A DNA stretch of 23,873 bases from a virus. The notes under the pieces are model-generated. The model ran no database searches. It was not told the DNA's origin and was given only the letters and a program-made list of their open reading frames with translations. A program made the position numbers and the translations under genes. The stretch lies in IMG/VR virus record IMGVR_UViG_3300034073_001528, positions 1-23,873 of that record. One strand, 5' to 3'. Below are positions 5,108 to 22,383 of this stretch, in pieces. Each line of letters begins with the position of its first letter. The stretch's first letter is position 1.

Positions 5108-5128
5108 GCCATTGCTCCTAAATGACCG

Positions 5129-5521: not shown

Positions 5522-5530
5522 GGCTTTCTC

Positions 5531-5935
5531 CTAGGGAATTATCTGCACACTTAATGCGGCGACATGCGCCACGTCATCGCTACTGACACTGCGGGGAATG
5601 TAATCGTCGCTGTGATCCTCGACAAAAATCCCTTTGACGGTGCTATCCGCGAACGCGCCGCGATAGTTGTTCAGCTTGTCGCGTACGGCCAACGCCAAAT
5701 CTTGGCATTGGTCCAGGTCTTCGCTAACGCATTCGATGTCGAAAAACTGCTCGTATCCCGAAGGCGATCCGCCGTCCAGCGTACGCGGTTCGTCGGTGCG
5801 TGACCGACGAAACCAAATAAACGGCACGATGGAAGATTCCGGCACGATGCCCTGATGCACCCGCGTCGACACAACGCCAGCAATGCCAGCGTCAGCCGTC
5901 AGGAATGTCCGTAGTCGTTCGGCAACGTCTGGCAT
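5531..5935 (-). CDS. Tail terminator, DUF3168-like (134 aa)
   Basis: Tail completion proteins of this type cap the finished tube and join it to the head. The N-terminus (AERLRTFLTADAGIAGVVSTRVHQGIVPESSIVPFIWFRR) has the typical pattern: short helix, a turn at G-I-A-G, R-V-[HY] strand, then P-[FY]-[IV] strand. The middle (FFDIECVSEDLDQCQDLALAVRDKLNNY) follows with the D-I-E-C strand and the long helix expected for the family. It sits directly after the gp10-like gene, coupled by TAATG, and directly before the tube gene, which is the usual place. I am fairly sure of the family from pattern and context, without a database comparison. Confidence 0.86.
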   Translation of the reverse strand: MPDVAERLRTFLTADAGIAGVVSTRVHQGIVPESSIVPFIWFRRSRTDEPRTLDGGSPSGYEQFFDIECVSEDLDQCQDLALAVRDKLNNYRGAFADSTVKGIFVEDHSDDYIPRSVSSDDVAHVAALSVQIIP

Positions 5936-6471: not shown

Positions 6472-6832
6472 CGACAGCCTCCGCGCACAAAAGCTCGATC
6501 AGCCCCTTATCCTGCCCCAGGTCGTTGACGTGCCCGATATTCAGCCGTCGCGTTCCCCACTGCAAGTAATGCCTCACCGTAATCTGATCGCCACGCCGCC
6601 ACCAACCGCGCACGACGTGCGACGCCGTAGGGTAGGTTTGGCGGGCGTTGATTAGCTCGACGCCCGTCAATGTCCGTATCTCGCATGGCCAAGCGATCGT
6701 CAGACTGACATCGGCTCCCGTGATCTGTCCGCGACTATCGACGCCCGTAGCCGGCCGCTTGACGTCAACGCGTTGACGCATCGAGCCTAGCCGGGCTGTC
6801 TGCGGGATGATTCGCGGAAGTCGTGCAGCCAT
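6458..6832 (-). CDS. Phage head closure protein, gp16-like (124 aa)
   Basis: A small beta-barrel-type neck protein. The N-terminus has the hallmark [LM]-R-x-[RK]-[VI] strand (GSMRQRVDVKRP near residues 17-27), and the centre has WPCEIRTLTGVELINARQTYPTASHVVRGWWR, the usual A-x-[IV]-x-x-[LV]-x-G-x-E pattern of head closure proteins. The tail end (RRLNIGHVNDLGQDKGLIELLCAEA) is the last paired strands. In relatives this ring closes the connector before the tail docks. Its ATG is coupled to the connector stop by TAATG, and its end overlaps the gp10-like gene by 14 bases. Family and place in the operon agree, so I am confident. Confidence 0.92.
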   Translation of the reverse strand: MAARLPRIIPQTARLGSMRQRVDVKRPATGVDSRGQITGADVSLTIAWPCEIRTLTGVELINARQTYPTASHVVRGWWRRGDQITVRHYLQWGTRRLNIGHVNDLGQDKGLIELLCAEAVDAAT

Positions 6833-7416
6833 TACGGATAGCTCGGTCGTTGATAGCGTAGGATCATGCGTTCGTAAGCCATGTTTTCAGTCAGCTTTTC
6901 CAGTCCCTCACGGTCTTGGAATCGTCGAGCGATGTCAACAAGCATCATCTGCTTGAACGCTTGCGGAATCGCGGCTTGCGACGCGTAGCCAGCAACAAAC
7001 GTCACCGTTACGCTATTCGGTTCGCCTCTGGCTGATGGCCAATCCTTCAAGTAGGCAAGTTTGATTTCCGGGATCGGCTCGTTGTTGTCGAGCGCGTAAT
7101 CCGCGCTCGTGAATGTGTAGGTGTTTCCATCGTCGCCGATGTACGTGATTGACGTCACGCTTTGTACTGGCCTCACCGGTAGATAAATTTCCGGTTCGCC
7201 AGGGAAGTCGTCAAGCGTCAGCGTATGCGTCCCTGTCGCCAGTACAACGCCGCAATCATGCTCGACTTGCTCGCGTGCAGCCTGAATCAGCCGCAGCACG
7301 TGCGCATCGTGCGCGTTGTCGTCGTCGGCTAGCTCAAGATGCTTTTTCGCTTCCGCCAACGTCACCGGCTCGAAAGTCGGTGACGTTGTGCGAATAGCTC
7401 GGCGTTCGCCTTGCAT
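6832..7416 (-). CDS. Head-tail connector, phiE125 gp8 / HK97 gp6-like (194 aa)
   Basis: This adaptor protein forms the ring below the portal. The beginning (PVTLAEAKKHLELADDDNAHDAHVLRLIQAAREQVEHDCG) is the diagnostic pattern of gp6-like connectors: a helix with [LV]-x-E-A-K-x-H-L, an acidic turn with D-D, and a long helix with I-x-A-A-R-x-x-[VI]-E. The middle beta strands (LPVRPVQSVTSITYIGDDG) and the C-terminal helices (AFKQMMLVDIARRF) complete the fold of the phiE125 gp8 type, which at about 190 residues fits this length. It starts three bases after the stop of the decoration-like gene. Confidence 0.92.
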   Translation of the reverse strand: MQGERRAIRTTSPTFEPVTLAEAKKHLELADDDNAHDAHVLRLIQAAREQVEHDCGVVLATGTHTLTLDDFPGEPEIYLPVRPVQSVTSITYIGDDGNTYTFTSADYALDNNEPIPEIKLAYLKDWPSARGEPNSVTVTFVAGYASQAAIPQAFKQMMLVDIARRFQDREGLEKLTENMAYERMILRYQRPSYP

Positions 7417-7419
7417 GGC

Positions 7420-7878
7420 TTACACTCGCAGGATGGCGCCAAACCCACGTTCCGAAGCGGACACACCCACGTCACCGGCTCGGCTCAGCAGAGCGAACGC
7501 GGCAAGGTAGGTGCCAGTCGATCCATCGCCAGCAGTGGCAACCAAATCGATGTACCGCTTGCGGCCCCGCAAGTCCACCTCAAACGAGAAACACTTGTTG
7601 TCGTCCGTGGCAGTTGGCAAAGCGGAAGTCGTTCCCGCAATGCTGGCACTGGTGCCGTAGACGAGCCCCGTGATGTCGGCCGCACCGCTCATGCCGCTGT
7701 CGTCGCTTTCTTGCAGCTTCAGAGCGGTCATGGCAATATCGGTGGCGCCAAGATAAACCAAGACTCGCAGATAAGCGAATCCGGCCGTATCAATGGTCGC
7801 CGTGGTGTAGCTGGCGTTGTCGACAATCGCCGCAGGCGGCGTAATGCTCACGAACTTGTCATGCTGTGCAGGATTCAT
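7420..7878 (-). CDS. Putative head decoration protein (152 aa)
   Basis: A 152-residue, beta-rich protein between capsid and connector genes, a place often used by head decoration or fibre-base proteins. The text includes ATIDTAGFAYLRVLVYLGATDIAMTAL and KLQESDD, then FEVDLRGRKRYIDLVATAGDG, a pattern of paired strands without catalytic residues, signal peptide or membrane segment. AAGGA five bases before the ATG is a clear ribosome site. It follows a strong hairpin after the capsid gene. The role as a capsid-binding protein is inferred from position and composition. Another minor virion role is possible. Confidence 0.82.
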   Translation of the reverse strand: MNPAQHDKFVSITPPAAIVDNASYTTATIDTAGFAYLRVLVYLGATDIAMTALKLQESDDSGMSGAADITGLVYGTSASIAGTTSALPTATDDNKCFSFEVDLRGRKRYIDLVATAGDGSTGTYLAAFALLSRAGDVGVSASERGFGAILRV

Positions 7879-7907
7879 TTTGATTCCTTTGCTTGATATG
7901 CGGGAAA

Positions 7908-7929
7908 GCGGCTAGCGGTTGCTAGCCGC
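7908..7929 (-). terminator. Strong hairpin in the capsid-decoration intergenic gap
   Basis: A perfect nine-base-pair stem, GCGGCTAGC, with a four-base loop, located 17 bases after the capsid stop codon. On the minus strand the 3' side is followed by only TTTCCC, so it would be a leaky terminator at best. A partial terminator or a 3' mRNA-protecting hairpin would let the capsid message be more abundant than the genes downstream (inference). Confidence 0.6.
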
Positions 7930-7946
7930 GAGAATGTCAATCAACA

Positions 7947-9320
7947 CTAGCTGCCAGGAGTCGACAGCATCACGATCGAGCCAGCCACGCTGGCCGTGCC
8001 TGTCTCGTGAACTTTGATGTCGAACCGCTCTGTGCCGAGGATGGCGATTTGCTGCGTCAGGAATTTCACTTCCCGAGACAGGTCAACCGTCACCCCGCGC
8101 CGATCGCCAAACTTGACGCCTTGGCGGAGGTTGCCAAAGTAAACAAGTCCGTCCGTGCTGGCTTGGTCGCCAGTCGTGTTGTTCATCACCTCGACGAACA
8201 CCACCGGATAGCCCAAAAACTGCACCTGCGACGCACCGCCCGCGATTTCGCGAGTCGTGTTGCCGCCAGCAGCCGCAGCCAAGCGAAGCATCGACAACGC
8301 CCAGCCCGACCGGTGGATGTACCACGACGGCCCACCGTTCATAAACGCGTAGCTTGGCAGCTTGGCGATCATGCCTTCGAAATCTTCCAGGTCAAGCTTT
8401 TGGAACCCCAGGTTGCCAGCGATCGCGGTGTATTTCGCACCGGCAGCCAGTGCGTTTTTAACACCGACAATGCCGCCGTAGGTCGACGTTCCGTCGCCAT
8501 TGAATCCGGCGTTGTCTTCGTTGTAGGCCATGGCGAGCGCCATTTCCTGCGTGATGAGATTGCCGACGGCAATGGCCGAGTCCTCGTCAACGTCTCGGCT
8601 GTAGTAGCTCAACGCACCCAGCTTTTTGGCGACAAGCTTCACCATGTCCAGCGTAGGCGTCGTCTCGGTAGGCGTGCCCGTTTCGCCGATCCAATAGCCG
8701 GTAATGCCATTGGTTCGACGAGGCGTATCCTTGACGTCGCGAGCCATTGGCACAATTTCAGCGGCACGGCGAATGACGCCGTATTCATTGACCAGCCGAA
8801 TCAAGTTGGCCTCGTATTCGACGGGAATCAGGAATCCGCCGTCCGAATCGCTGCTGCCGCTCATCGCGTTCTGGACGTCGATGCCAAGGATGTCCTGGCA
8901 CCACTGGCCAGCCGACTTGTTGCCAGCGACGGCCATCACCAATTTGCCAAACCCGTACGCGGCCTGCGCGGCGTGCTCACCTTGGAATGCGGTGATCGGC
9001 GCCCGAGCGGTGGCCTTCGCGGGAATGCGAATCCGAGCGAACAGATTGCTCGCATCGAGCACGCCCTTCGATTCGTGCACAGCAGGAATCTGGCGGCTGG
9101 CTTGCACGTTGGCAAGCTCGCGTTCGAACGCGGTGGCTTGTGCTAGTTGCTTTTTCAGATTGGCGACAATGCCGCCGTTTCCGTCCTCGCCGATCAACTC
9201 GGCAATGCGGGCGGATTCCTCCGCTTTCGGCTCGCGGTTTTCGCTGTCGATCACATTGGTGAGCGCCTGAACTTCGTCGAGCGAAGCGGCGATCTTTTCT
9301 TGCAAAACCTTCGATTTCAT
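7947..9320 (-). CDS. HK97-fold major capsid protein with N-terminal delta domain (457 aa)
   Basis: The coat protein that builds the head. I place the start at the ATG at 9320, behind AGGAG. The frame is open farther upstream, but that part covers the non-coding gap. Residues 1-75 are a charged, coiled-coil-type helix region like the delta (scaffold) domain that the prohead protease removes. The HK97 fold begins near residue 150: SDGGFLIPVEYEANLIRLV, then VIRRAAEIVPMARD, and later SYYSRDVDEDSAIAVGNLITQEMALAMAYNEDNAGFNGDG (the spine helix and turn), SWYIHRSG and FLGYPVVFVEVMNN near the end. The neighbouring protease and portal agree. Confidence 0.96.
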   Translation of the reverse strand: MKSKVLQEKIAASLDEVQALTNVIDSENREPKAEESARIAELIGEDGNGGIVANLKKQLAQATAFERELANVQASRQIPAVHESKGVLDASNLFARIRIPAKATARAPITAFQGEHAAQAAYGFGKLVMAVAGNKSAGQWCQDILGIDVQNAMSGSSDSDGGFLIPVEYEANLIRLVNEYGVIRRAAEIVPMARDVKDTPRRTNGITGYWIGETGTPTETTPTLDMVKLVAKKLGALSYYSRDVDEDSAIAVGNLITQEMALAMAYNEDNAGFNGDGTSTYGGIVGVKNALAAGAKYTAIAGNLGFQKLDLEDFEGMIAKLPSYAFMNGGPSWYIHRSGWALSMLRLAAAAGGNTTREIAGGASQVQFLGYPVVFVEVMNNTTGDQASTDGLVYFGNLRQGVKFGDRRGVTVDLSREVKFLTQQIAILGTERFDIKVHETGTASVAGSIVMLSTPGS

Positions 9321-9361
9321 CTGGCATCTCCTGTTGAAGTTGGCCGGGTGCCAACGACAAA

Positions 9362-9393
9362 GGGCACAACCCGGCGTAAGCTGGATCGTGCCC
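9362..9393 (-). promoter_or_regulatory. Stem-loop in the capsid leader
   Basis: In the transcript an 11-pair stem (GGGCACGATCC with GGGTTGTGCCC, two pairs being G-U) encloses a ten-base loop and is followed by TTTG. It lies about 40 bases before the capsid start codon, downstream of the candidate promoter. It may protect the 5' end of the capsid mRNA or attenuate it. There is no long T-run, so a classical terminator is unlikely. Confidence 0.5.
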
Positions 9394-9482
9394 CTAACAA
9401 GAGACTCGATTGGTTTGGCCGCGACACCTAACAAGACGCCGCGACCATCGAAATATACGCTACTGGACGCGTCCTAGCAAGA
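9393..9482 (-). repeat. Three copies of TCTTGYTAGG around the capsid leader
   Basis: On the minus strand TCTTGCTAGG (9473-9482), TCTTGTTAGG (9427-9436) and TCTTGTTAGG (9393-9402) occur within 90 bases. The first overlaps the stop of the protease gene and the -35 candidate. The two perfect copies are 34 bases apart and the first pair 46. They could be binding sites for a phage regulator or a host factor. Chance is possible for ten-base words, but three in one short gap is notable. Confidence 0.45.
9452..9480 (-). promoter_or_regulatory. Candidate sigma70-type promoter before the capsid gene
   Basis: TTGCTA (9475-9480), a 17-base spacer, then TATATT (9452-9457), all on the minus strand. The -10 matches five of six consensus bases and the spacer has the ideal length. 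The spacer contains the perfect 10-base palindrome GGACGCGTCC (9465-9474), a possible operator. It lies in one of the few real gaps in the gene string (9321-9473), just before the gene that needs the highest expression. Sigma70 consensus is only assumed to hold for the unknown host. Confidence 0.5.
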
Positions 9483-10109
9483 TGCTCGCGCCAAAGCCAG
9501 TCGGCGACGCATGGCGGCCGCCGCGACGTTTGGCGATACACTGGCAGCCCCTGTGAGCAAATCTTGAGGCGTTTTGGCAAACATCCCATCGCGGACACAA
9601 GCTTTGATCGCTAGCTGCTGGCCGACAGCATCGGCAAATCCATTTTTGACCGCTTCCTCCGCCGTCATCCAAGTTTCGGCGGCCATCCACTCGCGGATCT
9701 TTTCCTTATCCTGCTTGGTTCTCGCCGCGTATTGATCCACAAGCTGTTCGTCGATTTTCCGCAGCAACGCGGCCGCTTTTTCGTGCTCGGCGGCGTTGCC
9801 GTACAGCCCGCCCCACGCGTTGTGAATCATCACCATCGCGTTAGCCGCAATCTCAATGCGGCTTGCAGCCATGGCGACAAACGAAGCGGCGGATGCCGCC
9901 AACGCGTCAATCTGCACGACGACGCCAGGCGTGTAAGCGGCCAACGCCGAATACATGGCCTGCCCTTCGAACACGCTCCCGCCCGGCGAATTCACACGCA
10001 CGCGGACTGGTTGCCCGCCAGCTTCGCGCAGTTGGTCGACCATCCATTTTCCATCGAGCAGCCCGTAATAAGACGGCCCGATTTCATCGTAGAGCATGAT
10101 TTCCTTCAT
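9474..10109 (-). CDS. ClpP-like prohead protease (211 aa)
   Basis: A serine protease of the S14 (ClpP) type that cuts the scaffold part of the capsid protein inside the prohead. The start is the ATG at 10109, coupled to the portal stop by ATGA and preceded by GGAG. The longer frame upstream lies within the portal gene. Visible hallmarks are NSPGGSVFEGQAMYSAL at residues 40-56, the nucleophile serine 76 in AASAASFVAMA, and the histidine 96 in VMIHNAWGG. The acidic third member is expected in the segment after residue 115, and WMTAEEAVKNGFAD near 140 is the standard C-terminal motif. The portal-protease-capsid order is canonical. Confidence 0.95.
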   Translation of the reverse strand: MKEIMLYDEIGPSYYGLLDGKWMVDQLREAGGQPVRVRVNSPGGSVFEGQAMYSALAAYTPGVVVQIDALAASAASFVAMAASRIEIAANAMVMIHNAWGGLYGNAAEHEKAAALLRKIDEQLVDQYAARTKQDKEKIREWMAAETWMTAEEAVKNGFADAVGQQLAIKACVRDGMFAKTPQDLLTGAASVSPNVAAAAMRRRLALARASC

Positions 10110-11692
10110 GTGACATCTCCCGCAACGATGGCCGTTGCTAGTTGGTCGATACGATCTTGCCACAACGCTGTCTCAGCCCTGACAGCCTCCGCAAGCCCAT
10201 CAGGAACGCGGCTAGCGACTTCGGACAATCGCCGCTTACTTTCGGCCGTCCAATCATTGGCGAGCGTAGGCGGCCCGTCACACTCGCTCACAGCGGATGC
10301 AACTCGCTCCGTCCACGTCGCGTAAAACTTGTCGAGCCAGCCAGTAAAGTTCGGTTCTGCTGATGCTTGCATCACTCGGCTCACCTCCACTTTCGCCATT
10401 GCCGCAATCCGCGCCGCGACAATCTTGCGGAGCCTTGCTTCAACCGCTGGCGGCTCAGTTGTGCGGGTAGGTTGTTCGGTTGTCGCGGGCGGCGTAGTCG
10501 TAATTGCTGGGTTGGCATACGAGTTTCCATCCGGGTCCGTGCGTCGGTTCATGTCCTCCAATTCGCGCACCTCGTTCGCGTTCATCACGCCAATCTGGCG
10601 AGCGATTTGATACACGCCGTAGCGTTCCTTTGTCGTGCCCTTAAGCAACGCGGCCGTCACGAATTTGAAATAGTATTGATCCGAGTAGAATTGCGTTGTC
10701 GTCAACAGCTTGCTGGCGCACTCCTCTTCCCAGCGAATCATCCAGCGTTGTAGGCAGTTGTTGATATACGCCTGATTCTTCATTTCCAGCGAGTTGTACG
10801 ATACGCTGGTATCATCGCCCAACATCTGCTCAACGCAAAACAGCAAGCCAATATCCTGCCGCGAAAACTTGCGGCTTTCGATCGATTGGGCCTCAGCGTT
10901 CGTCTGGCTGATCTGCTCAACGCTCAGCCCCTCGCGGATCAAGCCAACTTTGTCCGCGTTTTCCGGACCGCTATGAAACTCGTTGAACTTGTCGACAAAC
11001 TGCTTGGCATCGGCCTCAGAACGAAACGCCCCAGGCGGAGCCTTGAGTAAAAACTTGACGCGTGCGCCGTTCTTTTCGCTCATCACGGCCCGCGTTTGCT
11101 GGGCAATCGCCAGCCCGAGCGTTTGCTTGGCGGCGTCGATGATGCCAAGCCCGGAAAAGCCATCATCACTCAGCCCCATGATGTGCAGCACGTCCTCGTC
11201 CGAAATCCGCGATGTCGGATCGTCAATCCGAACGTGCCATTTACGAGCAGGCACGTTTTGGCCTACGATCTGTCGGCCAGGATCGACAACAATGGCCCAC
11301 GCATCCGGCCTCATCAAGATAAGCTCGCTCGGCTCGCCACGCCCATTGCGGACGATCGCCGATCGTCCGTCGCCGTGCAGCAACGCGTGATGCTGCATCG
11401 TCTCCCGCCAAACGCTCGACGTCATCAACGCGTTTGGCTGGCGACGGACAAGCCAATACGCCGGATGCAAGCGGGCAATCTCCGCGTCGCCGTCGGATTC
11501 GCGGTAGTACAGATTGAGCGGCAGGCTTCCGATGTGGCCGCAGATTTTGTTTAGGCTGTACCAAGCGGCAGGCATCCCTCGAACAGTCGACGGATTGACC
11601 GCCACGCCAAGCGATTCCTGCGACTCGCCAAACGCCTCCTGAATCCATCGCTGCAACGCGCTGGAGCCTGCGGAAATATTTTGCGGTTCCAT
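10106..11692 (-). CDS. HK97-family portal protein (528 aa)
   Basis: The dodecameric ring through which DNA enters and leaves the head. The order of landmarks is typical: AVNPSTVRGMPAAWYSLNKICGHIGSLPLNLYYR near 30-64, HPAYWLVRRQPNALMTSSVWRETMQHHALLHGDGRSAIVRN near 76-116, then SDEDVLHIMGLSDDGFSGLGIIDAA near 163-187 and KFSRQDIGLLFCVEQMLGD near 273-292. The C-terminal 130 residues include a Thr/Pro-rich link (TTTPPATTEQPTRTTEPPA) and an extra helical region, longer than in HK97 itself. Its SD is TAGGAG, where TAG is the terminase stop. Confidence 0.95.
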   Translation of the reverse strand: MEPQNISAGSSALQRWIQEAFGESQESLGVAVNPSTVRGMPAAWYSLNKICGHIGSLPLNLYYRESDGDAEIARLHPAYWLVRRQPNALMTSSVWRETMQHHALLHGDGRSAIVRNGRGEPSELILMRPDAWAIVVDPGRQIVGQNVPARKWHVRIDDPTSRISDEDVLHIMGLSDDGFSGLGIIDAAKQTLGLAIAQQTRAVMSEKNGARVKFLLKAPPGAFRSEADAKQFVDKFNEFHSGPENADKVGLIREGLSVEQISQTNAEAQSIESRKFSRQDIGLLFCVEQMLGDDTSVSYNSLEMKNQAYINNCLQRWMIRWEEECASKLLTTTQFYSDQYYFKFVTAALLKGTTKERYGVYQIARQIGVMNANEVRELEDMNRRTDPDGNSYANPAITTTPPATTEQPTRTTEPPAVEARLRKIVAARIAAMAKVEVSRVMQASAEPNFTGWLDKFYATWTERVASAVSECDGPPTLANDWTAESKRRLSEVASRVPDGLAEAVRAETALWQDRIDQLATAIVAGDVT

Positions 11693-11700
11693 GTAGGCTC

Positions 11701-13413
11701 CTAGAAAACAACCATCGACCCAGAGGGTTTACGCGCCGCGTACATGCACTCGGAGAACGCCATCAACATCGACACCATGCCGTCAACCTTATGCTTTTCG
11801 TCGCCCTTCATCGGCATGACGTGATCTTTGTGATTGCGGTAGAGGGCCATATTTTTGGCCTGCCACTCCAACACCGGATCGCCGCCATGATACACAATTC
11901 CAGCGTCCAACGCGTCCAAAAACCGCATTGTCGGTTCGTGGTAGTGGTACGGCGCTTGCGTGAACTTAAACACGGGCAGCCCGTGTTCCTCTTGGAGGCT
12001 CTGTCCAAAGCTAGCGGCGAAAGCCGGGTCGAACGCCCACGACTCGATTTGATACTTCCCAGCCATCTCCAATATCCACGCCTTGACCGCTGCGTAATCG
12101 ACGGCCGATCCACGGCACACGTTGAGCAGTCCGCGTTTGGCCCAGCCGCGAAACGGTTCGTAGTCCGGCCGAAACTTGCCTTCGTCGCAGCACCAGCAAC
12201 GCGAGACAATCGAATACTTCACCGGCGACTTGCCCTCAGCCCGCTCGATGTACTCCGGGAACACTAGCGACACCGCGCACCAATCATTCGAGCGGCCTAG
12301 GTCAATTCCGCCATGGCCGTACGTTCCATCAGCCACAACGACAGGTTGATTGCCGCGTTTCCAGCGCGTCGCCGTGATCGGCTTATCTTCCTTTTCGGCT
12401 TTGCGGTTGCAGTTGTATCGAATGAACGCACCCAGCTTTTCCGGTCGCCGCTGTGCTGTTTCCGATTCGCTTCGAAGGTATTCAATCTTTGCCGATACGC
12501 CTAAATTTGGGTTGGCCTTCGCCCAGCATGCTTCGTCAAACGGATCGTCCTCGTCGTCAATCCGAGCGATAAACGCGAATAGCTCGTCGTCATACACTTC
12601 GCCATTCGCAACAGCCTCAACAGCATGAACTGCCGCAGCGTCTTCCTGTAGCCAGATAATCGAATCATCGCTACCGGCAGTCGTAATCATCAAAAGCATC
12701 GGCTGGCGACGCGCAGCCCCGCCGGTTTCCATTTTCTCTTTCGATTCGCGTTGCCGTTCCGTCCAGGCGTGTAGCTCGTCCTCGATCACGCAATGCGGGT
12801 TGAGTCCGTCTTTCTGGCTGTCAGCCCCTAACGGCATGAACTTGCTGTTCTGGTTGACATACCATATCGCGTGCGGAGCCTTACGCACTTTCGACCGGCT
12901 GTTGAGCGCGGGCGATGCAGTCACCATCTGCACCGCGTCATCGTAGCAGATGTGCGCCTGCTCTTTTTTCGTCGCCACCACGTACACTTCGGCTCCCGGC
13001 TCGTTCGGCTCATCGAAGTATTGGCACAACAAACCGACACCAGCACCGAGGGTTGTTTTGCCGTTCTTACGTGCGACAGTGACGTATCCGCGACGGAATC
13101 GCCGCAAGCCGTCAACCTTGCGACGCCACCCAAACAAGCTCCAGATGATAAACTGCTGCCAATCGGATAACACGAACGGCTGGCCTGCCCACTGGCCTTT
13201 GTAGTGCCTCAAAACCTTCGGAAAAAACATGCACGCCCGGTGGGCAATGTCAGCGTCGAAGTAATAGCCGCGTTCGTGGGCGTGCTCCAAGTCCGCCAAA
13301 TGTCGCTGCACCGCCAGCTTGACCAGCTTGGACGCGACGATATCGCCACGCATCACCGCGTCACAATATGCGGCTACGTTCTCGCGCGGCTTTGGCGGTT
13401 CGGTGGCAATCAT
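11701..13413 (-). CDS. Terminase large subunit (570 aa)
   Basis: ATP-driven motor and nuclease that packages DNA. Motor domain: the adenine-side motif with QPFVLSDWQQFI near 78-90, Walker A ARKNGKTT at 114-121, Walker B CVIEDE at 208-213, and the coupling motif LLMITTAGSDDS near 240-251. Nuclease domain: a metal-binding aspartate in GGIDLGRSND (Asp371), then FDPAFAASFGQSLQ, and a final aspartate in HKVDGMVSMLMAFSE (Asp544). This is the Terminase_1 type used by HK97-like cos phages. It starts with ATGA coupling to the small subunit. The length is normal and all catalytic motifs are present. Confidence 0.97.
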   Translation of the reverse strand: MIATEPPKPRENVAAYCDAVMRGDIVASKLVKLAVQRHLADLEHAHERGYYFDADIAHRACMFFPKVLRHYKGQWAGQPFVLSDWQQFIIWSLFGWRRKVDGLRRFRRGYVTVARKNGKTTLGAGVGLLCQYFDEPNEPGAEVYVVATKKEQAHICYDDAVQMVTASPALNSRSKVRKAPHAIWYVNQNSKFMPLGADSQKDGLNPHCVIEDELHAWTERQRESKEKMETGGAARRQPMLLMITTAGSDDSIIWLQEDAAAVHAVEAVANGEVYDDELFAFIARIDDEDDPFDEACWAKANPNLGVSAKIEYLRSESETAQRRPEKLGAFIRYNCNRKAEKEDKPITATRWKRGNQPVVVADGTYGHGGIDLGRSNDWCAVSLVFPEYIERAEGKSPVKYSIVSRCWCCDEGKFRPDYEPFRGWAKRGLLNVCRGSAVDYAAVKAWILEMAGKYQIESWAFDPAFAASFGQSLQEEHGLPVFKFTQAPYHYHEPTMRFLDALDAGIVYHGGDPVLEWQAKNMALYRNHKDHVMPMKGDEKHKVDGMVSMLMAFSECMYAARKPSGSMVVF

Positions 13414-13847
13414 GCTGTCTCTCGTCGTAGTGCCAATAGATCGTCCTCCGGCGCATCAGCCGCAGCACCTCGAAGACGTTGACGGGCGATTGGTGTTGCC
13501 CCGATGGCATTGGCCATCGACATAAACGCCCGTGTTGCCGTTCCGGCATTGCCGACAGCCTTTTGCCGCTCGCGATCGTCGCCGGCCTGCGTCACCGCTC
13601 GAAGTTCATCGAGCAAAATGCACCACCATCGAGCCATGCCCTCCAAAACCGCTCGATCGCCTTGCCCAAGGCTCTGCGATAGCGATTCGGCGACATCATG
13701 CCACAGTCGCATACCGTGCGCGGGTAGGTCGGCAGGCGGTTCGCCGATGTCGCCAATGGGGTCGGCGTAGATTCGGTCACCCATCCGATCGGCTCGATAC
13801 GTGCCATCGGCCATGTGCTGTGCGATCGACTTGGGAATTGCTGGCAT
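13410..13847 (-). CDS. Terminase small subunit, P27 family (145 aa)
   Basis: DNA-recognition partner of the large terminase. I start it at the ATG at 13847 behind AGGAA. The frame runs further up only through a TTG in the gap. The arrangement is P27-like: a basic N-terminus, the landmark EPPADLPAHGMRLWHDVAESL near residues 36-56, a helical middle, and the end FMSMANAIGATPIARQRL near 109-126, the G-[ML]-[TS]-P-x-[AS]-R-x-[RK]-L signature of the family. The stop overlaps the large-subunit start. The gene follows HNH and a small gap, matching the HNH-TerS-TerL module of HK97-type phages. Confidence 0.92.
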   Translation of the reverse strand: MPAIPKSIAQHMADGTYRADRMGDRIYADPIGDIGEPPADLPAHGMRLWHDVAESLSQSLGQGDRAVLEGMARWWCILLDELRAVTQAGDDRERQKAVGNAGTATRAFMSMANAIGATPIARQRLRGAAADAPEDDLLALRRETA

Positions 13848-13957
13848 GTTTCCTAGTTCCAATATGGCAAAAGCCGTTTTTTGATTGCCCAAAACTCACG
13901 GAACCTTGCAACGGCGGTCCTAACACACTCCAAACCTAGATTTTTGGCACCCCGGGT

Positions 13958-13977
13958 ACCCCCATAGGGGGGTTTTT
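13958..13977 (+). terminator. Intrinsic terminator-like hairpin, plus orientation
   Basis: ACCCCC, loop ATAG, GGGGGT, then TTTT: a six-pair GC stem with a T-run, in the plus direction, although no accepted gene reads that way. It could block antisense transcripts. Read on the other strand it has A's before the stem and no T-run after it. Confidence 0.5.
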
Positions 13978-13983
13978 GAAAAT

Positions 13984-13998
13984 CCACCTTGCGGGTGG
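13984..13998 (-). terminator. Weak terminator-like hairpin after the HNH gene
   Basis: In the minus direction CCACC, loop CGCAA, GGTGG, followed by ATTTTC. It lies 12 bases after the HNH stop. The stem has five pairs only and the T-run is short, so it would be a leaky stop, reducing read-through from the accessory and fibre genes into the packaging genes. Confidence 0.35.
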
Positions 13999-14009
13999 GA
14001 ATTGAATTG

Positions 14010-14351
14010 TCACCCATCAACTGGGTATTCATTGGTCAACCCGTACCTCTCGCGTAGGGTATGCCACGACAGCCCCTCAACCTCGTCGTGGCATTGCTGG
14101 CACACCGGCAACAGGTTGCCAACGTGATCGGCTAGCGTACGATCGGCCTGCACCGGGACGACGTGATGCGTTTCCACAGCCTCACGCACCACGCCACGTG
14201 TTTCACATACTCGGCACAATGGATAGCGGCCTAGGACAATCGCCCGAGCCTTTTCGTATGTGCGGCTGTAACCACGCTGCCTAGCGGTCGGTCGATGCTT
14301 GTATGCGTCACCCCTTGACCGCTCACCACGTACTGGGATTGCATTGGCCAT
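14010..14351 (-). CDS. HNH endonuclease (113 aa)
   Basis: A small nuclease next to the terminase genes. The zinc pairs CRVC (46-49) and CQQC (84-87) frame the beta-beta-alpha metal motif: THHVVPV with His62/His63, NLLPVCQQCH with Asn79 and His88. In HK97-like phages an HNH protein encoded beside the terminase stimulates cos cleavage and DNA packaging (family knowledge), and position suits the same role here. The ATG is coupled to the fibre gene by TAATG. The N-terminal 30 residues are basic and probably bind DNA. The length is normal for these packaging HNH proteins. Confidence 0.94.
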   Translation of the reverse strand: MANAIPVRGERSRGDAYKHRPTARQRGYSRTYEKARAIVLGRYPLCRVCETRGVVREAVETHHVVPVQADRTLADHVGNLLPVCQQCHDEVEGLSWHTLRERYGLTNEYPVDG

Positions 14352-15961
14352 TAGTCGCGCCCCACGATTTCCGACAGGTCAAACGATACGGCGTTCGGCA
14401 CCGTGAACGATTTCGCCTCACCTCTAACACCACGCCGTATCGAGTAGGTAGCCCCTCGAACAAATCCGTTGTGCGATATCACGCCGCTTGCATTGCTTGT
14501 CAGCGTGAACGTGTCGCCATCGTAGGCCGAGCCATCCGTGCCAGTGCCTTGCACCTGCTGGATTGTCACGACGACGCCTTGCAACGGCAATCCCGTTGTG
14601 CCGTAGCAGATGGCCGTGCCTGTCGACAGGTTGGCCGCAGCGGGAAGCGTAGGCGTCACCGCCGTCATCGAGTAGGTCTGCGACGTCGTGTTGGCGATCA
14701 CCTTGGTTGTTGGCGTGAAACTGTAGCCAGCCTTCGAAATGGCCACGCTGTATGTTGCCGCATCCAACGCAAACACGGCAACTCCGCTTGCGTTCGTCAC
14801 CGCGACATAGTTGTTGACGCCTTCCACAAGGCGAACGGTTGCGTTCTGCAATGCCGTCGTGCCATCATCCACCGTGACAGTGAACGTATACGCTCCGCTT
14901 CCGCTGCCGATCGAACCCCACGCTCCGCCGCCATGAGTGCCGCTTAGTTGCGTGTCGATTTCGGCTGCCGTTGGCAAGTCGCCCAACTGCGTATCCAGGT
15001 TAGCCGCAGCCAGCCCCAAAGCCGATCGAGTACCTGCCGCATCGAGCGGTGCCGTGTAATCCGCATCCGCCAACCGACTGCCGACCGTTACATCGAGGCG
15101 AGCGAGCTCGACCGCCAATTCCGTCCGCACCCCAGCCGCGATAGCGGTGATGGGGTGAACGTGATCCGGCAGCAGCACAAACTCATCGCCCACAGTCGGC
15201 GCGGATGTCAACGCCTCAGCCAGCGTGAACGTGCCGTTCGTCTGTGAGTAGGTGTCAATCGGCCTGCTTTCGCCCGCCAGCGTGCCCGTCAAAAATAGCA
15301 ATGTCTGATGGTCGTACGTGCCCGATGGAGCGGTCAGATTCGAGCGGAACACCGTCGTAGTCGGCGTCTGTCCGCTCGCTACCGTGCCATCAGTGACGTA
15401 GTTCGACTTACGCAGCGTGTCCATCAGCTTGCCGAACGAACCCGCCGCAACATGGCTTGCGTAAGCTTCATCCCATACGGCGTCAGCGTTTTCGCCAGCG
15501 GTCGGAATCGTCGGCAACGCCCCTCCGTTCCACTGCGTGACGTTGGCCGAGACCGTAAACGAGAACGCGGATAGCGTGCGGGTCGAGTATTCCCAAACCT
15601 GCTGCGCCGTTAGCGTGCTATACCCAGCCGCGCCAGACGCAAATAGCGCATCGAATACAGGCTGCTCCAGTACGCAACACACAAGCCGCACAGGCAACGC
15701 ACCAGCGACAGCCACATTGATTATCAATTCCCCGGTCGTATCAGTGTCGGTGGCGTCTAGCGTCGCGTAATACCGCCCGTCCGCAATATGCGTTGCCCCG
15801 CCGCTGTTCTTGCTACTCTCCGTGGTGCCGCCCCGCTTCCACAATTTGATATCGCTCGCGTTGATCGTCAGCGCGGTCTCAGCCGTCTTGCCGTCCGTGT
15901 CGTCCAAAAACGGCCCGAGCAACACCTCTTGGGATGCCGTAGACTTGCGTAATGGAATCAT
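14351..15961 (-). CDS. Multi-domain tail fibre-like protein (536 aa)
   Basis: The N-terminal 105 residues (VLLGPFLDDTDGKTAE, DIKLWKRGG, GRYYATLDATDTDTTG) form a beta domain often seen at the start of phage fibre proteins. A linker then holds QVWEYSTRTL and NADAVWDEAYASHVAAGSFGKLMD (near 158-181), short units repeated in many phage fibres, here once each. Residues about 357-434 are an Ig-like or carboxypeptidase-regulatory-like fold (TVTVDDGTTALQNATVRLVE, YSVAISKAGYSF), followed by a second, similar domain to the end (LPLQGVVVTIQQV, TYSIRRGVRGE). Such modules bind sugars or stack virion fibres. The gene is coupled to the lectin gene by ATGA, so both probably serve host recognition. Confidence 0.85.
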   Translation of the reverse strand: MIPLRKSTASQEVLLGPFLDDTDGKTAETALTINASDIKLWKRGGTTESSKNSGGATHIADGRYYATLDATDTDTTGELIINVAVAGALPVRLVCCVLEQPVFDALFASGAAGYSTLTAQQVWEYSTRTLSAFSFTVSANVTQWNGGALPTIPTAGENADAVWDEAYASHVAAGSFGKLMDTLRKSNYVTDGTVASGQTPTTTVFRSNLTAPSGTYDHQTLLFLTGTLAGESRPIDTYSQTNGTFTLAEALTSAPTVGDEFVLLPDHVHPITAIAAGVRTELAVELARLDVTVGSRLADADYTAPLDAAGTRSALGLAAANLDTQLGDLPTAAEIDTQLSGTHGGGAWGSIGSGSGAYTFTVTVDDGTTALQNATVRLVEGVNNYVAVTNASGVAVFALDAATYSVAISKAGYSFTPTTKVIANTTSQTYSMTAVTPTLPAAANLSTGTAICYGTTGLPLQGVVVTIQQVQGTGTDGSAYDGDTFTLTSNASGVISHNGFVRGATYSIRRGVRGEAKSFTVPNAVSFDLSEIVGRD

Positions 15962-17774: not shown

Positions 17775-18137
17775 CTAGCTCCCCATATATCCGCTAATGC
17801 CCAGAACCGATTCCACCGCCGGTATTCGTTCCGGGTTGCTTTGCAGCATAGCGTTGATTTGCATGATCCGCATTTGGTTCGACAACGCGATTGCTTCAAG
17901 CGTGTCAGGATTTGGCGACTCGCCAATCACCACGCCATCGTCCTGGAACACATACACTTCGGCCAGTTCCGCGTTCGCGTCGTCGATGTCGCTAGCGATA
18001 TGACGGCCATGCGGGCAAACGGGACATGGCGGCAAGCCAAGTTGCAAATGCCCGAGCATACCGCCACATCCAGGACAAATGCCTGTCGATCGATGACGGC
18101 AAATGCGGCAGGGCCCGCTAGTCGGCTCAGTTGCCAT
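17775..18137 (-). CDS. Small zinc-ribbon-like protein (120 aa)
   Basis: Three Cys pairs lie in the first 41 residues: CRIC (10-13), CPGC (21-24) and CPVC (38-41), with histidines 15, 30, 43 and 46 between and after them. This looks like one or two treble zinc sites. The following text (NAELAEVYVFQDDGVVIGES) is a beta segment, and the end is helix with IMQINAMLQSNPERIPAVESVLGISGYMG, like protein-binding tails. There is no signal peptide. The ATG overlaps the previous gene by 11 bases and the stop touches the next start. It may be a virion assembly, nucleic-acid or protein adaptor. I cannot name it. Confidence 0.77.
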   Translation of the reverse strand: MATEPTSGPCRICRHRSTGICPGCGGMLGHLQLGLPPCPVCPHGRHIASDIDDANAELAEVYVFQDDGVVIGESPNPDTLEAIALSNQMRIMQINAMLQSNPERIPAVESVLGISGYMGS

Positions 18138-18531
18138 AGTTGTCCCCCACTATCCCGCACATGTCCGTCCAGGCGATGCCCGATTGCGTGTCGGCCTCCG
18201 GCAACACCTGCTCGATCCGCTTTTGCTCTTCACGCTCACGGGCAATCCGTTCCTGCGTCGCTTCCACCCGCCAGGCGAACAGCCCGAGTAGTCCAAGGAT
18301 CACGGCGTAGGCGGCGACTCGGATTGCGATTGCCGCTTGGTACGTGCGGCGGGCTTTGGCGCATCGGGCAAGCTTGCGGCTGGCAAGGCGTTTCGCAACA
18401 CGTTGACGGCGGTCCGCCTCAGCCAGTCGAGCGACGATGGCGCCGACCAATCGACCGCCACCGACGCCACAATGGTCCAGGCTATTGCCGACGTCGGCTG
18501 GATCGCTAGCGACTCGATCAGTAGGAGACAT
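18127..18531 (-). CDS. Single-span membrane protein (134 aa), spanin- or holin-like candidate
   Basis: A start at ATG 18531 with GGAGG six bases upstream. The first 66 residues are basic (RRQRVAKRLASRKLARCAKARR) and would stay in the cytoplasm. A hydrophobic helix follows at about 67-88 (AAIAIRVAAYAVILGLLGLFAW). The rest begins with a charged helix (RVEATQERIAREREEQKRIEQ), which would face the periplasm and looks like the rod of an inner-membrane spanin. The family is not recognisable. The gene lies in the cluster of membrane and secreted proteins next to the fibre block, so a lysis role is worth testing, but the evidence is shape only. Confidence 0.75.
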   Translation of the reverse strand: MSPTDRVASDPADVGNSLDHCGVGGGRLVGAIVARLAEADRRQRVAKRLASRKLARCAKARRTYQAAIAIRVAAYAVILGLLGLFAWRVEATQERIAREREEQKRIEQVLPEADTQSGIAWTDMCGIVGDNYGN

Positions 18532-18737: not shown

Positions 18738-18989
18738 TTAGCGGACGATAATCAATGGCTGTGCGAAATGGTGCGGCACAACCAGTTGTTGCGGAAAAAG
18801 CAACTGCTGGCTATGCGGCACAATGATAGCAGATTGTCGCGGCACGACGATCTGTTGCCGATCGACCACGACTTGCCGCCTACGGCCTAATGGACCGCGC
18901 ACAACCTGACGCCGCACAACCTCAGCCCCATCAGCGGCTACGGCAGCCAGCACGATAGCCGCAATCAAGATAATCCGAGACACAATCAC
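18738..18989 (-). CDS. Small secreted basic protein (83 aa)
   Basis: The first 22 residues (MIVSRIILIAAIVLAAVAADG) form a clear signal peptide with an A-x-A site near position 19-21. The mature part is short, rich in Val, Gln, Arg, Pro and His, with a repeated [VI]-V-[PRD]-[RQH] rhythm (QVVVDRQQIVVPRQSAIIVP) and no cysteines. The GTG start at 18989 has AAAGG just before it. The GTG two codons later (18983) is an alternative. Such Val/Gln/Pro repeats suggest an extended, sticky periplasmic or outer-surface peptide. The family and function are unknown. It belongs to the export-rich block. Confidence 0.75.
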   Translation of the reverse strand: MIVSRIILIAAIVLAAVAADGAEVVRRQVVRGPLGRRRQVVVDRQQIVVPRQSAIIVPHSQQLLFPQQLVVPHHFAQPLIIVR

Positions 18990-19003
18990 CTGCCTTTCTT
19001 GGG

Positions 19004-19342
19004 TTAGCCCTTCAGCCCCATGATTTCGCGGAACAACCCCGCAAACTTCTTGAATCGAGCCAGCTTCGGAAAAAATCCGATCAGCAATTCAATGATCGAA
19101 TCAAAGTCGATCTTGCCCTGTCCGTTGTCGGCGGATTCAATCTGCGCCGACTCAAGCTCGCCAACAAACGCCGATCGAATTTGCTCGCTGATACGCGTTT
19201 GCCGCAATCCGCGTAAAATCTGGTTTGCTTGTTGAGCAGTCAGTAGCCTGCTTGCATAAGCCGCCTGCACAGCCTCGTTAGCAACTCTCACCCACTCACG
19301 ACGCCTACGCCTACGCTCACCCGCCATTAGTTTTTTCGCCAT
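19004..19342 (-). CDS. Hypothetical helical protein with basic N-terminus (112 aa)
   Basis: I place the start at ATG 19342, behind AAGGGG. The longer frame overlaps the cytochrome gene. The first 17 residues include a run of arginines (ERRRRRREW), a likely nucleic-acid- or membrane-lipid-binding segment. Then come helices with AAYASRLLTAQQANQILRGLRQ, an acidic middle (ELESAQIESADNGQGKIDFD), and an amphipathic C-terminal part (SIIELLIGFFPKLARFKKFAGLFREIMGLKG) that may touch a membrane. No signal peptide or catalytic motif. It lies between two exported genes, 14 bases from the next. No family is recognised. Confidence 0.72.
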   Translation of the reverse strand: MAKKLMAGERRRRRREWVRVANEAVQAAYASRLLTAQQANQILRGLRQTRISEQIRSAFVGELESAQIESADNGQGKIDFDSIIELLIGFFPKLARFKKFAGLFREIMGLKG

Positions 19343-19353
19343 CACCGATCCCC

Positions 19354-20127
19354 TTATTTCGCCTCTGACAGTTCGAGAACAATTCCCTGACGATCTTCCT
19401 GCGATAGTTGTGAACCCGGTGGCATGCGTCCAGACAACACGGCTGCCACGGCCGATAGACTCACTTTGCAATCGACCTCCTCACCTCCAAGATACACGCC
19501 GCCCTTTGGGGCCGCGATGTCCGTTCCATGGCATTTGCCGCAATGCTTGTTGGTCAAAGGAAAACCCCGCGCCGGCGACACAGCGCTGGCGGAACGCTGC
19601 GGAGGATCTTGTGCCGGCGCGGGGGGCGTGGATACCGTTGGCTGGACGATCTGCCATTTGCCGTCGCGTAATTCGATCTGGAGAGTTTGCGGCGGTTGCT
19701 GGATCGGCTGGACAATCGCCGCTTGAACAGCGGGCTGACTGGCTTGCAGAGTCAACGCTAACGCGGCAGTTTGGCCGTATCCCTTGAGTCCTTGATCGGC
19801 TAGTTGCTGGGCTCCTCTGGTCAATTCCGCAGCCTGACGCAATACGGCGGCCGGATCGAGCGAATACGCTTGGACGGCCGTTGACAGACCGTAGACGCTT
19901 CCACCCTGCGGAGCGATCAGCGTAGCGGCGGCGCCGTTGCCAGGAGCGTAGTTATTGATGATTGAAATGGGTGGCTGTGCAATCACGGGTGCCGCCACGA
20001 CAGCGGCCGCAACGTGATGTTGCTGCGACACAAACCGGCAACGGCTGCCGAACAGCCCGCACCGCGAACACGCCCAACAGTCGCTAGCGACTATTGCCAG
20101 CATGCAAAATATGATTGCTCGAATCAT
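19354..20127 (-). CDS. Exported cytochrome c-domain protein (257 aa)
   Basis: A signal-like N-terminus (MIRAIIFCMLAIVASDCWAC) is followed by a Cys-rich spot (CSRCGLFGSRC, residues 20-30) and a long Ala/Gln/Pro-rich region to about 185. The C-terminal 70 residues form a small class I cytochrome c: covalent heme site CGKCH at 196-200 followed by G-x-x, then GVYLGGEEVDC near 210-220, and the distal-ligand candidate Met235 in SGRMPPGSQLSQEDRQGIVLEL, which is the usual M-P-P-x-x-x-L-[ST]-x-x-[ED]-x loop before the last helix. Export is required for heme attachment, which the signal explains. It is coupled to the upstream heme-motif gene by ATGA. Its function in a phage is unknown. Confidence 0.85.
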   Translation of the reverse strand: MIRAIIFCMLAIVASDCWACSRCGLFGSRCRFVSQQHHVAAAVVAAPVIAQPPISIINNYAPGNGAAATLIAPQGGSVYGLSTAVQAYSLDPAAVLRQAAELTRGAQQLADQGLKGYGQTAALALTLQASQPAVQAAIVQPIQQPPQTLQIELRDGKWQIVQPTVSTPPAPAQDPPQRSASAVSPARGFPLTNKHCGKCHGTDIAAPKGGVYLGGEEVDCKVSLSAVAAVLSGRMPPGSQLSQEDRQGIVLELSEAK

Positions 20128-21620
20128 TTCGCCACCTCCAAGCTTTGCCTCAGCAGGTCCTGATAGATCGTCTCAAAGTCTGGACGATTGATCCGCAAAC
20201 CTGCCCGCAAGTATGCCGCCACGCCGTCTATCTCACGTGTCGGATTGTCCGGCCCTAGGGCCACGTCCAACGCGTTCCGCTTATCGTCTGGTCCAATCAT
20301 GTATCCAAGCTCTAACGCGGCCCTACGGCCGTCTATCCGCTCATAATCATAAGCGTAGAGAACGTCCCGAAGCAACTGACCAACTTGAGCCACTAGCGAC
20401 TTGTCGGCCTGGAAATTGATTCCGATAGGCACACAGCGAGCGATTGCCGCCGAGTAATCACGGCGTGCGCGGCCCAGCAATCCATCAGCCGAGTCCACGT
20501 CAAGCGCGTACAGTTCGGCTAGCTTGTCGATCGCTTCTTCGCGGCTGATGCCCAGGTTTGCCAAGTCGCTCACGACGTCGAACCGCCCCGACTTTAGCAC
20601 CGTCTGAACGTCGTTCGGGAACTCACGCCAACCTTCCGCACGCTCGATGTTGTGACACACGATGCACGATCGAGCAGGTCTAAGGCGTGCCGTATTTGGC
20701 GGCGGTATGTTGTGATCGCGGACAAGTTCTGGAGGGGCCTCACGCACTAGCTTTCCATTGCCGTCGAACAGCGTGTATTCAATCATGCCGTTCGTCAACG
20801 TCAGCAATACTTCGCGGCCCTGATCTTTGAAAATAAACAGGTTCTTAAGCGGATGCCGTTCGGCCTGCTGACCGCCATCGGCGATGTCACGCGTTACGCT
20901 CCACAGCCCGCCGCTCAGCCCAAGTCCGAAGTCCGCTCGACGAGGCTTGGCGGTCACATCTGATGCCGTTAACGCGGCTCTGCGTTCGCCTCCTGCGTCT
21001 TGGGTAGCTCGAAGAAAAACGCCACGGCCCCGCAAGTAGCGATCAAACTCGGTTAGCCCGCCAGCGTCCTTATCCGTATCCGTCGGCAATTGCCGGAACT
21101 CGTAGTAGGCACCGCCGTCGAGCGTATCGAGCGCTTTCGCCACCCACCAATCAGCCCGATAGACAGCGCCGGCGGATAGCGTGAGTTGTGCCAGCAACAC
21201 GGCCTGATCTTGCGGCACCGTCGGTGCAATCACCGCCACATCAACGCCGCTATTGGCTTTCGGGACGTGCAAGTACGGGTCGATTTTCGCGAGCGAATCC
21301 CATGTCGCCAGTGTCTTGGCGATCGTCGTTTTTCGCGGGCTGAATCGTCGCAAGTCCACCCGCATCATCCAGCCGTTGGCAATCACGTCAGCCCGCTGGA
21401 TCGTCGACGCCTGCGACACCGAAGTATTGAGCGCGAAATTCAGCAGCGGCACCCACTGCTCGTTGCCCCAGGGCGGGATTGCCAGATAGCGAAGAAACGG
21501 CCGATCGGCTTCCGGTTGCTGGACCAGGTCCGTCAGCGCCCAACCAACCCAATCCGGCGGGATTGGTTGGCGTGCGGGCGGATCGGCACAGAGCACACAA
21601 GCCAGCAACGCTGCAATCAT
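20124..21620 (-). CDS. Large exported protein with one c-type heme motif (498 aa)
   Basis: I start at ATG 21620, which overlaps the stop of the 45-aa gene (ATGA) and gives a short hydrophobic leader (MIAALLACVLCADPP). It may be a Sec or lipoprotein signal, since LAC or VLC could be a lipobox. The frame is open for 31 more codons upstream, but that part lies in the small gene. Residues about 40-290 are a large unrecognised region (RVDLRRFSPRKTTIAK, LATWDSLAKIDPYLHV, then TNGMIEYTLFDGNGKLVREAPPELV). A heme motif CIVCH stands at 319-323 (SCIVCHNIERAEGWRE), and about 170 helical residues follow. The layout recalls planctomycete secreted cytochrome proteins. No heme ligand methionine is obvious. 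Confidence 0.82.
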   Translation of the reverse strand: MIAALLACVLCADPPARQPIPPDWVGWALTDLVQQPEADRPFLRYLAIPPWGNEQWVPLLNFALNTSVSQASTIQRADVIANGWMMRVDLRRFSPRKTTIAKTLATWDSLAKIDPYLHVPKANSGVDVAVIAPTVPQDQAVLLAQLTLSAGAVYRADWWVAKALDTLDGGAYYEFRQLPTDTDKDAGGLTEFDRYLRGRGVFLRATQDAGGERRAALTASDVTAKPRRADFGLGLSGGLWSVTRDIADGGQQAERHPLKNLFIFKDQGREVLLTLTNGMIEYTLFDGNGKLVREAPPELVRDHNIPPPNTARLRPARSCIVCHNIERAEGWREFPNDVQTVLKSGRFDVVSDLANLGISREEAIDKLAELYALDVDSADGLLGRARRDYSAAIARCVPIGINFQADKSLVAQVGQLLRDVLYAYDYERIDGRRAALELGYMIGPDDKRNALDVALGPDNPTREIDGVAAYLRAGLRINRPDFETIYQDLLRQSLEVAK

Positions 21621-21754
21621 CGTATCCACCGCCACGCCGCACACGCCAAGATATGCAAGCCGAACAGCAGCAGCGACAACACGCCCAAGAGCCCCGCTAA
21701 GCTGATTGACCAATCCTCAATAAAGTACAACCATTCCCTCGTCTGCAAGCTCAT
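21617..21754 (-). CDS. Tiny single-span membrane protein (45 aa)
   Basis: A frame of 45 codons exactly fills the space between protease and cytochrome genes, with ATGA overlaps at both ends (start at 21754, stop at 21617-21619). The protein reads MSLQTREWLYFIEDWSISLA and then a hydrophobic helix (GLLGVLSLLLFGLHILACAAW) closed by WRWIR. The two overlaps and the full hydrophobic helix make a real gene likely, despite the small size. The basic C-terminus suggests N-out, C-in by the positive-inside rule. It could be a pinholin-type or regulatory membrane peptide, or a membrane anchor for its neighbours. No homologue is recognised. Confidence 0.7.
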   Translation of the reverse strand: MSLQTREWLYFIEDWSISLAGLLGVLSLLLFGLHILACAAWRWIR

Positions 21755-22383
21755 TTCATCCGCTCCACGCTAAGCCCTTCACGCACCAGCAACACCAACC
21801 CGCCAGCCCTCGCCACCAACCGGAACAATTCCGCGTCCGCCACAGGATCAACCGGCGCAGGCGTCTTCGGTCGCGGCGGCCCGTATGCCTCAACCGTCAG
21901 CCCGCGTTCCCAATCGCCGATCGTCATTCGCGGATCGTACACCGGCCTCATCAAATCCGTGCCTCCATGGTCGAGACCGAGCACATGACCTAGCTCATGT
22001 TCCGCAACAACTTGCAAGCCAATTCGATTTACGGGAATGGGCGTGCCAATGGCCCACGGTTCGCGGGCATCAAATCGCATTTGCAGCGGTGTCGTCCGGC
22101 CTTGCAAATACGGCAACTCGGCGTCAGCCAACACGCCACCCGGTTGCTGGCTCATCGTTGTCACCGTCAGCGATTCTCGCGAGTCAACCTCCGCAAACTC
22201 GATGCCGCAGACGGCTTGCCAAGAGTCGCAAGCAGCGCGGAACACGCGGCGGAACAAATCGCGGTCGATGCCCGGCAAGCCCGTCAGGGCCACGCGATAG
22301 CGGATAGTTGTTCCGCGCGGCCAGCGTGCTGGATTGCTTCCGAGGGGCGCGGGCTTGTAGCCGCAGATAATCCTATCGGACAT
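21751..22383 (-). CDS. Matrixin-like zinc metalloprotease (210 aa)
   Basis: The zinc motif HELGHVLGLDH at residues 129-139 fits HExxHxxGxxH exactly, with Glu130 as the catalytic base, and is followed by LM (144-145) as the Met-turn. The upstream part is typical for the matrixin fold: TTIRYRVAL near 25-33, FRRVFRAACDSWQAVCGIEFAEV near 44-66 (the A-x-x-x-W-x-x-[VI] helix and F-x-E-[VA]). No signal peptide is visible, so it works in the cell, in the virion, or after lysis. Residues 150-210 are a Pro-rich link and a short hydrophobic helix. Phage matrixins are rare. It could cut host envelope proteins or virion precursors. It starts three bases after the 93-aa gene. Confidence 0.9.
   Translation of the reverse strand: MSDRIICGYKPAPLGSNPARWPRGTTIRYRVALTGLPGIDRDLFRRVFRAACDSWQAVCGIEFAEVDSRESLTVTTMSQQPGGVLADAELPYLQGRTTPLQMRFDAREPWAIGTPIPVNRIGLQVVAEHELGHVLGLDHGGTDLMRPVYDPRMTIGDWERGLTVEAYGPPRPKTPAPVDPVADAELFRLVARAGGLVLLVREGLSVERMK

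Follow-up and report, generated by a model that had tools for sequence, protein, structure and literature searches.

A conserved viral cassette of putative heme proteins and interchangeable proteases that probably helps phages breach or alter the envelope of planctomycete-type hosts

In a phage genome from IMG/VR, two adjacent genes for candidate exported c-type heme proteins form the core of a conserved viral cassette that also comprises a protease, a small helical protein and a small secreted protein. The cassette probably helps viruses to breach or alter the envelope of their hosts, in this case planctomycete-type bacteria with an unusual envelope. Our preferred explanation, which we hold at a probability of roughly 0.45, is an envelope-breaking (lysis or egress) system in phages of such hosts. 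Its observed basis is an exported-type heme pair that nearly always occurs with a protease, lies near packaging genes and moves as a unit.

Results

Putative heme protein pair in a siphophage genome

The window, meaning the whole stretch of DNA analyzed, corresponds to a single virus record in IMG/VR (23,873 bases), with its genes on the minus strand. Judged from its structural gene set, encoding the large and small terminase subunits, portal, ClpP-type head protease, major head protein, connectors, major tail protein and tape measure, the virus is a siphophage. An earlier note on this DNA had described two ATGA-coupled, exported-type c-type heme proteins in a phage context; motifs, overlap and N-termini were all recovered, and phage structural genes on the same strand flank the pair on both sides. 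For the 498-aa and 257-aa proteins, we coined the labels CXX and CBB, respectively. CXX (20124..21620, minus strand) is a putative exported heme protein with a single CxxCH, an assignment based on homology to a planctomycete family and on its conserved heme-attachment motif, CIVCH at residues 319-323 (20652..20666, minus strand). The gene begins with ATG, and the open frame reaches back to a TTG at 21713 (529 aa). Its stop codon overlaps the start of CBB in an ATGA (20124..20127, minus strand), a coupling also present in loci L002, L125, L129 and L151. CBB (19354..20127, minus strand) is likewise putatively exported and features a C-terminal class-I-like cytochrome c domain, as suggested by a Cytochrome_CBB3 match. 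It contains a CGKCH heme-attachment motif at residues 196-200 (19528..19542, minus strand) and, within RMPPG, a likely axial Met loop, Met235-Pro-Pro (19417..19425, minus strand), that aligns with the host domain discussed below. Hydrophobic N-termini on both proteins, together with the CxxCH motifs, identify CXX and CBB as candidates for exported c-type heme proteins. Shuffled versions of the two sequences had a mean of 0.002 CxxCH motifs and never contained two in 1000 trials.

Profile searches lent support to the cytochrome assignment for CBB, which matched Cytochrome_CBB3 (PF13442) with an E value of 6.8e-5 and 23.6 bits, below the curated cut-off of 27, and with an E value of 2.8e-7 in a genome search; we, accordingly, describe it as resembling this family and do not count it as a member. 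They did not do so for CXX, which had no match in Pfam. Neither protein matched NCBIfam or PHROGs, sequence searches of the PDB returned nothing matching and the same held for plasmids searched for CXX. AlphaFold models, with pLDDT values of 46.5 (CXX) and 40.3 (CBB), were too poor for a fold search. Among 61 aligned CXX relatives of viral-type and chromosomal origin, C319, C322 and H323 are 100% conserved, while no other histidine or internal methionine is conserved in 60% or more of the sequences.

An upstream matrixin and several small proteins, which the earlier note did not cover, complete the cassette. The matrixin, an M10-type zinc protease of 210 aa, occupies the protease slot directly upstream of CXX (21751..22383, minus strand; PF00413, E 8.4e-15). 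Its Pfam score of 55.4 bits exceeds the cut-off of 24, and both the zinc motif HELGHVLGLDH (HExxHxxGxxH) and the Met-turn (DLM) are present in the sequence. Downstream of CBB follows a small basic, helical protein of 112 aa with a C-terminal amphipathic helix (19004..19342, minus strand), for which a relative occupies the same place in a second phage, G001; small helical proteins are also present in other cassettes. The adjacent gene (18738..18989, minus strand) encodes a low-complexity, Q/V-rich protein of 83 aa that is putatively secreted on the basis of its hydrophobic N-terminus, with positional analogues of similar style after CBB in L134/L135, G540 and L174. A 134-aa protein (18127..18531, minus strand) with one predicted membrane segment and a charged helix is a tentative member: hydropathy suggests a holin-like topology only, and a family search gave no match.

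The cassette in other viruses

The pair, which the earlier note proposed to look for in other phage genomes, is present in G001 and in the huge phage LR756511.1; it is, therefore, not confined to host chromosomes and, in all likelihood, not the product of a chimeric contig. G001 (IMGVR_UViG_3300037508_001223, 58,070 bases) carries matrixin, CXX, CBB and the helical protein with amino acid identities to the window of 94%, 86-88%, 88% and 65%, respectively. Nearly all of its other genes are unrelated to those of the window. The exception is a tail-fibre-like protein common to both phages (window 14351-15961; G001 3-983; 47% identical), which suggests the same or related hosts. DNA similarity is limited to window positions 18871-22377, thus reaching into the gene for the 83-aa protein, and to a 155-base fragment in the fibre gene; within the cassette, the two phages differ by 13-31%. 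The G001 cassette begins 3 bases past that phage's own terminase gene and has a G+C content of 57% in a phage of 50% G+C, indicating that it was transferred as a unit. Values for dN/dS of 0.06 (matrixin), 0.07 (CXX), 0.13 (CBB) and 0.24 (helical protein) point to purifying selection and argue that all four are kept as functional proteins.

A third IMG/VR contig, L055, contains the matrixin and the beginning of CXX, and viral scans with S8-type or mixed alignments yielded no new contigs besides it. Such scans detect close relatives only, so that the number of viral carriers is a lower bound. Another contig, L050 (IMG/VR 3300036770_001654), is 100% identical to window positions 1-15891 and stops there, inside the fibre gene. 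In GenBank, one of 50,697 phage records, the 595-kb LR756511.1, contained a CXX relative (E 0.01 or better). This phage has two CXX loci, one consisting of a C39-like peptidase followed by CXX. In the complete locus, genes for a papain-like peptidase (PF00112, E 0.0033) and a small helical protein precede that for CXX, which here has a membrane anchor at its N-terminus; CBB (motifs CAQCH and RMPP) and a secreted protein with repeats come next. In many genomes of Planctomycetota, too, the cassette lies beside genes for terminase or portal.

Unrelated proteases in the same slot

The protease upstream of CXX differs by lineage, and the families involved are unrelated. M10 proteases fill the slot in the window, G001, L055, G540 and G780, S8 subtilases (subtilisins) in the G378 group, and papain/C39-like proteins in LR756511.1, L136, L139, L140 and L141, the latter four having no Pfam match and being assigned from Cys/His sequence motifs. 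For the window M10 protease and the S8 proteins, inspection of the sequences revealed no signal peptide. The L141 slot protein belongs to phrog_19005. A GH16 glycosidase (PF00722, E 5.9e-16) between the papain-like protein and CXX in L140 (11413-12312; G417) adds a hydrolase of another type to the cassette. No protease was seen in the slot of L135 and L137. Phage MW202816.1 encodes a protein related to the papain-like slot protein (35% identity). Its gene overlaps an annotated N-acetylmuramoyl-L-alanine amidase gene and sits behind those for a multi-membrane-segment protein and a lipoprotein; its neighbours include no CXX or CBB genes. In G409, an S8-CXX-CBB set lies amid host genes with no phage genes nearby. 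Contig C1 of G540 features CRISPR-array-like repeats translating to NACRRQRISH (8036-10725), located ~17 kb upstream of the M10-CXX cassette.

Planctomycete relatives and evolutionary history

A first scan of genome contigs with three viral sequences gave no matches. Probing with a 54-aa consensus, we obtained 11 planctomycete loci and then tested homology with real sequences. A profile of viral CXX sequences matched host proteins with E values of 1e-8 to 3e-15, in agreement with the alignment, which substantiates the kinship with planctomycete secreted cytochromes that had been suggested before. These chromosomal relatives, which occur in Planctomycetota, are single-chain proteins comprising a PSCyt1/CBB3 cytochrome domain, a CXX domain with its own CxxCH and variable tails. 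They constitute a large unnamed planctomycete family with a central domain for which no Pfam model exists. Across L056-L066, the C-terminal tails include WD40, TPR and FGE types.

Of the 32 chromosomal members, 30 carry a fused N-terminal CxxCH and the other two have incomplete starts; none of the 29 viral-type members has such a fusion. The label 'viral-type' was assigned from context: about half of these loci have terminase or portal genes in their stretches, and the remainder are cut by contig ends or, in G409 (L144) and G540 (L151), have no terminase nearby. Downstream of CXX, 23 of the 25 testable viral-type loci contain a CxxCH partner gene, and viral CBB aligns with the fused host N-terminal domain at CxxCHG and MPP. 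By these sequence comparisons, CXX and CBB are a split form of the planctomycete di-heme protein. In an unrooted maximum-likelihood tree of the CXX domain, one branch with an SH-aLRT value of 100 parts all viral-type from all chromosomal rows. This single branch and the missing fusion argue for an old viral-type lineage; the phylogeny, thus, agrees with the planctomycete kinship but not with a recent capture from the host; the earlier note had considered a host-derived pair.

A fixed phage-like element in one planctomycete order

In one order of Planctomycetota, the cassette is located directly upstream of genes for a ParB-like protein, ATPase/GNAT, TerS, TerL, portal, head protease and capsid, which together make up a phage-like element (L089, L124-L141 and L175-L194; G378, G401-G497 and others). 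In several genomes, the element is bordered by the same host genes: moaB plus an endo/exonuclease-like gene at one end, and genes for an HTH protein and a PolB-type exonuclease-like protein at the other. Sampling 397 genomes of the order, we detected the element TerL in 138, nearly always as a single copy and with identities mostly of 45-71%. Fixed flanks and copy number suggest vertical inheritance; a rank correlation between the identities of element genes and those of the neighboring host genes gave no information. No integrase was seen in the loci inspected, and the element is a candidate gene transfer agent or domesticated prophage. The freely accessible papers searched contained no description of it. 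As a further feature, L124 (6844-7974) and homologues beside TerS/TerL encode an ABC-type ATPase fused to a GNAT acetyltransferase, a fusion that corresponds to phrog_11143 and is also found in Gordonia and other phages.

Elements devoid of CXX were informative about the slot. Among 19 further elements of this kind, 15 contain a secreted trypsin-like protein upstream of ParB-ATPase-TerS-TerL, at the same place as the cassette and mostly paired with a ~200-aa protein; the two trypsin-like proteins tested matched Trypsin_2 (E 4.5e-18 and 1.2e-17). The slot, therefore, usually holds a protease, and the heme pair belongs to one set of accessory genes among two or more alternatives.

Discussion

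Lysis or egress is favored by the interchangeable proteases in combination with a gene-order analogy to phage lambda, whose lysis genes also stand beside the terminase genes. The place of the papain-like protein in MW202816.1, at an amidase gene, points the same way, as do the trypsin-like proteases in elements devoid of CXX. Late in infection, the signal-less protease would reach the envelope, perhaps by means of the small helical or membrane proteins, and cut a protein-rich wall. CXX and CBB would be exported by Sec, receive heme from the host cytochrome c maturation system and act as a periplasmic redox pair, with CBB (His/Met heme) exchanging electrons in either direction with CXX, which has no conserved second ligand. 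Such a pair could loosen a disulfide-linked protein sacculus or tune the timing of lysis. Of this model, we are least sure about the redox step, and the role of heme is its weakest point. We regard as rather unlikely the most specific version, in which a split di-heme redox pair and an interchangeable protease dismantle a disulfide-linked protein wall by redox-assisted proteolytic lysis, and it is similarly speculative that this would serve phages of small size, one huge phage and a phage-like element domesticated in Planctomycetota alike. Counting against a lysis function are the copy among host genes in G409 and the fact that many planctomycetes possess peptidoglycan. It speaks for such a function that no endolysin or holin families were among the Pfam matches listed (25 of 28 families) for window and G001 proteins, for which the PHROG matches listed covered 25 of 58 families; small helical or membrane proteins are present, none of them with a holin family match. 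The window genome is, however, incomplete, and a canonical endolysin may lie beyond it.

An envelope role was one option named in the earlier note and is supported as such, but it might take a form other than lysis. The exported heme pair and protease could reshape the surface of the host in the course of infection or in lysogeny, perhaps as a block to superinfection or as a guard of the infected cell, for example against peroxide. We view such an envelope moron, and either purpose, as possible but doubtful. The export signals of CXX and CBB, the moron-like transfer of the cassette between unrelated phages and the stand-alone G409 copy are in line with it, and a conserved CXX heme whose second ligand is not conserved would be apt for binding a ligand or acting as a peroxidase. 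However, the M10 and S8 proteases differ from typical exclusion proteins in having no signal peptides, and the swapping of protease families as well as the trypsin-like set in the same slot suit degradation better than surface blocking. The latter two observations also favor lysis or egress over a diversion or maintenance of respiratory electron flow during infection, an earlier suggestion that found no support and that we now deem improbable. CBB as a predicted Met/His-type cytochrome c domain and the reported phage-borne c-type cytochrome SoxD (PMC8190135) would agree with auxiliary metabolism. Yet the cassette neighborhoods examined contained no respiratory partner, quinol or oxidase gene, the constant companion being a protease, and an old lineage conserved at the terminase in fixed elements is unlike a recently captured metabolic gene.

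Proximity to late structural and packaging genes, in phages and elements alike, could mean that the protease and heme proteins travel in or on the particle and aid the genome in crossing the envelope. This is very unlikely: the Sec-type signals on CXX and CBB would send both proteins out before assembly, and no similarity to tail or virion families was found. Finally, the genes might belong to a host or an assembly chimera, given that the family is otherwise planctomycete, that the identical shorter contig L050 stops before the cassette and that the G001 sample also contains a relative of the window phage. We rejected this scarcely credible explanation on the basis of multiple carriers, comprising three IMG/VR contigs (the window, G001 and L055), the GenBank huge phage and prophage-like loci, of the diverged G001 copy next to that phage's own terminase gene and of the uniform base composition along the window.

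A search of freely accessible papers identified no description of the cassette and no paper on phage exit from, or change of, planctomycete envelopes, and exit from cells with such envelopes appears little studied. With a near-constant heme pair, the cassette spans viral records of 24 kb to 595 kb and an order-wide phage-like element. To our knowledge, no redox component has so far been linked to an envelope step of a phage, and the cassette, which offers a directly testable handle, would be the first case. Should the redox step turn out to be essential, the mechanism would be new in kind. The cassette also provides a first hint from gene context for the large, unnamed planctomycete cytochrome family.

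Among known systems, the lambda S-R-Rz/Rz1 (holin-endolysin-spanin) cassette shares with ours a small helical or membrane protein, a signal-less hydrolase, two overlapping exported envelope proteins and an adjacent terminase. It differs in that the hydrolase here is a protease and the exported pair carries heme c motifs; the family matches listed include none to known holins, endolysins or spanins. The amidase and papain-like pair of MW202816.1 resembles the cassette in its slot protein adjoining a hydrolase but has neither CXX nor CBB nearby. SoxD, the product of a metabolic gene, is likewise a c-type heme protein on a phage contig but partners SoxC in sulfur oxidation (PMC8190135), whereas the partners here are a protease and a second, split heme protein. 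Also close are the planctomycete secreted multidomain cytochromes of the PSCyt1 (PF07635)/CBB3 type: their N-terminal cytochrome domain, with CxxCHG and MPP, is similar to CBB, and their second, unnamed domain, marked by 'LPNGLQxY...GLSCMSCH', is a homologue of CXX. The host form is one chain, often with WD40, TPR or FGE tails, whereas the viral form consists of two genes, is tail-less, falls into a separate clade and is coupled to a protease.
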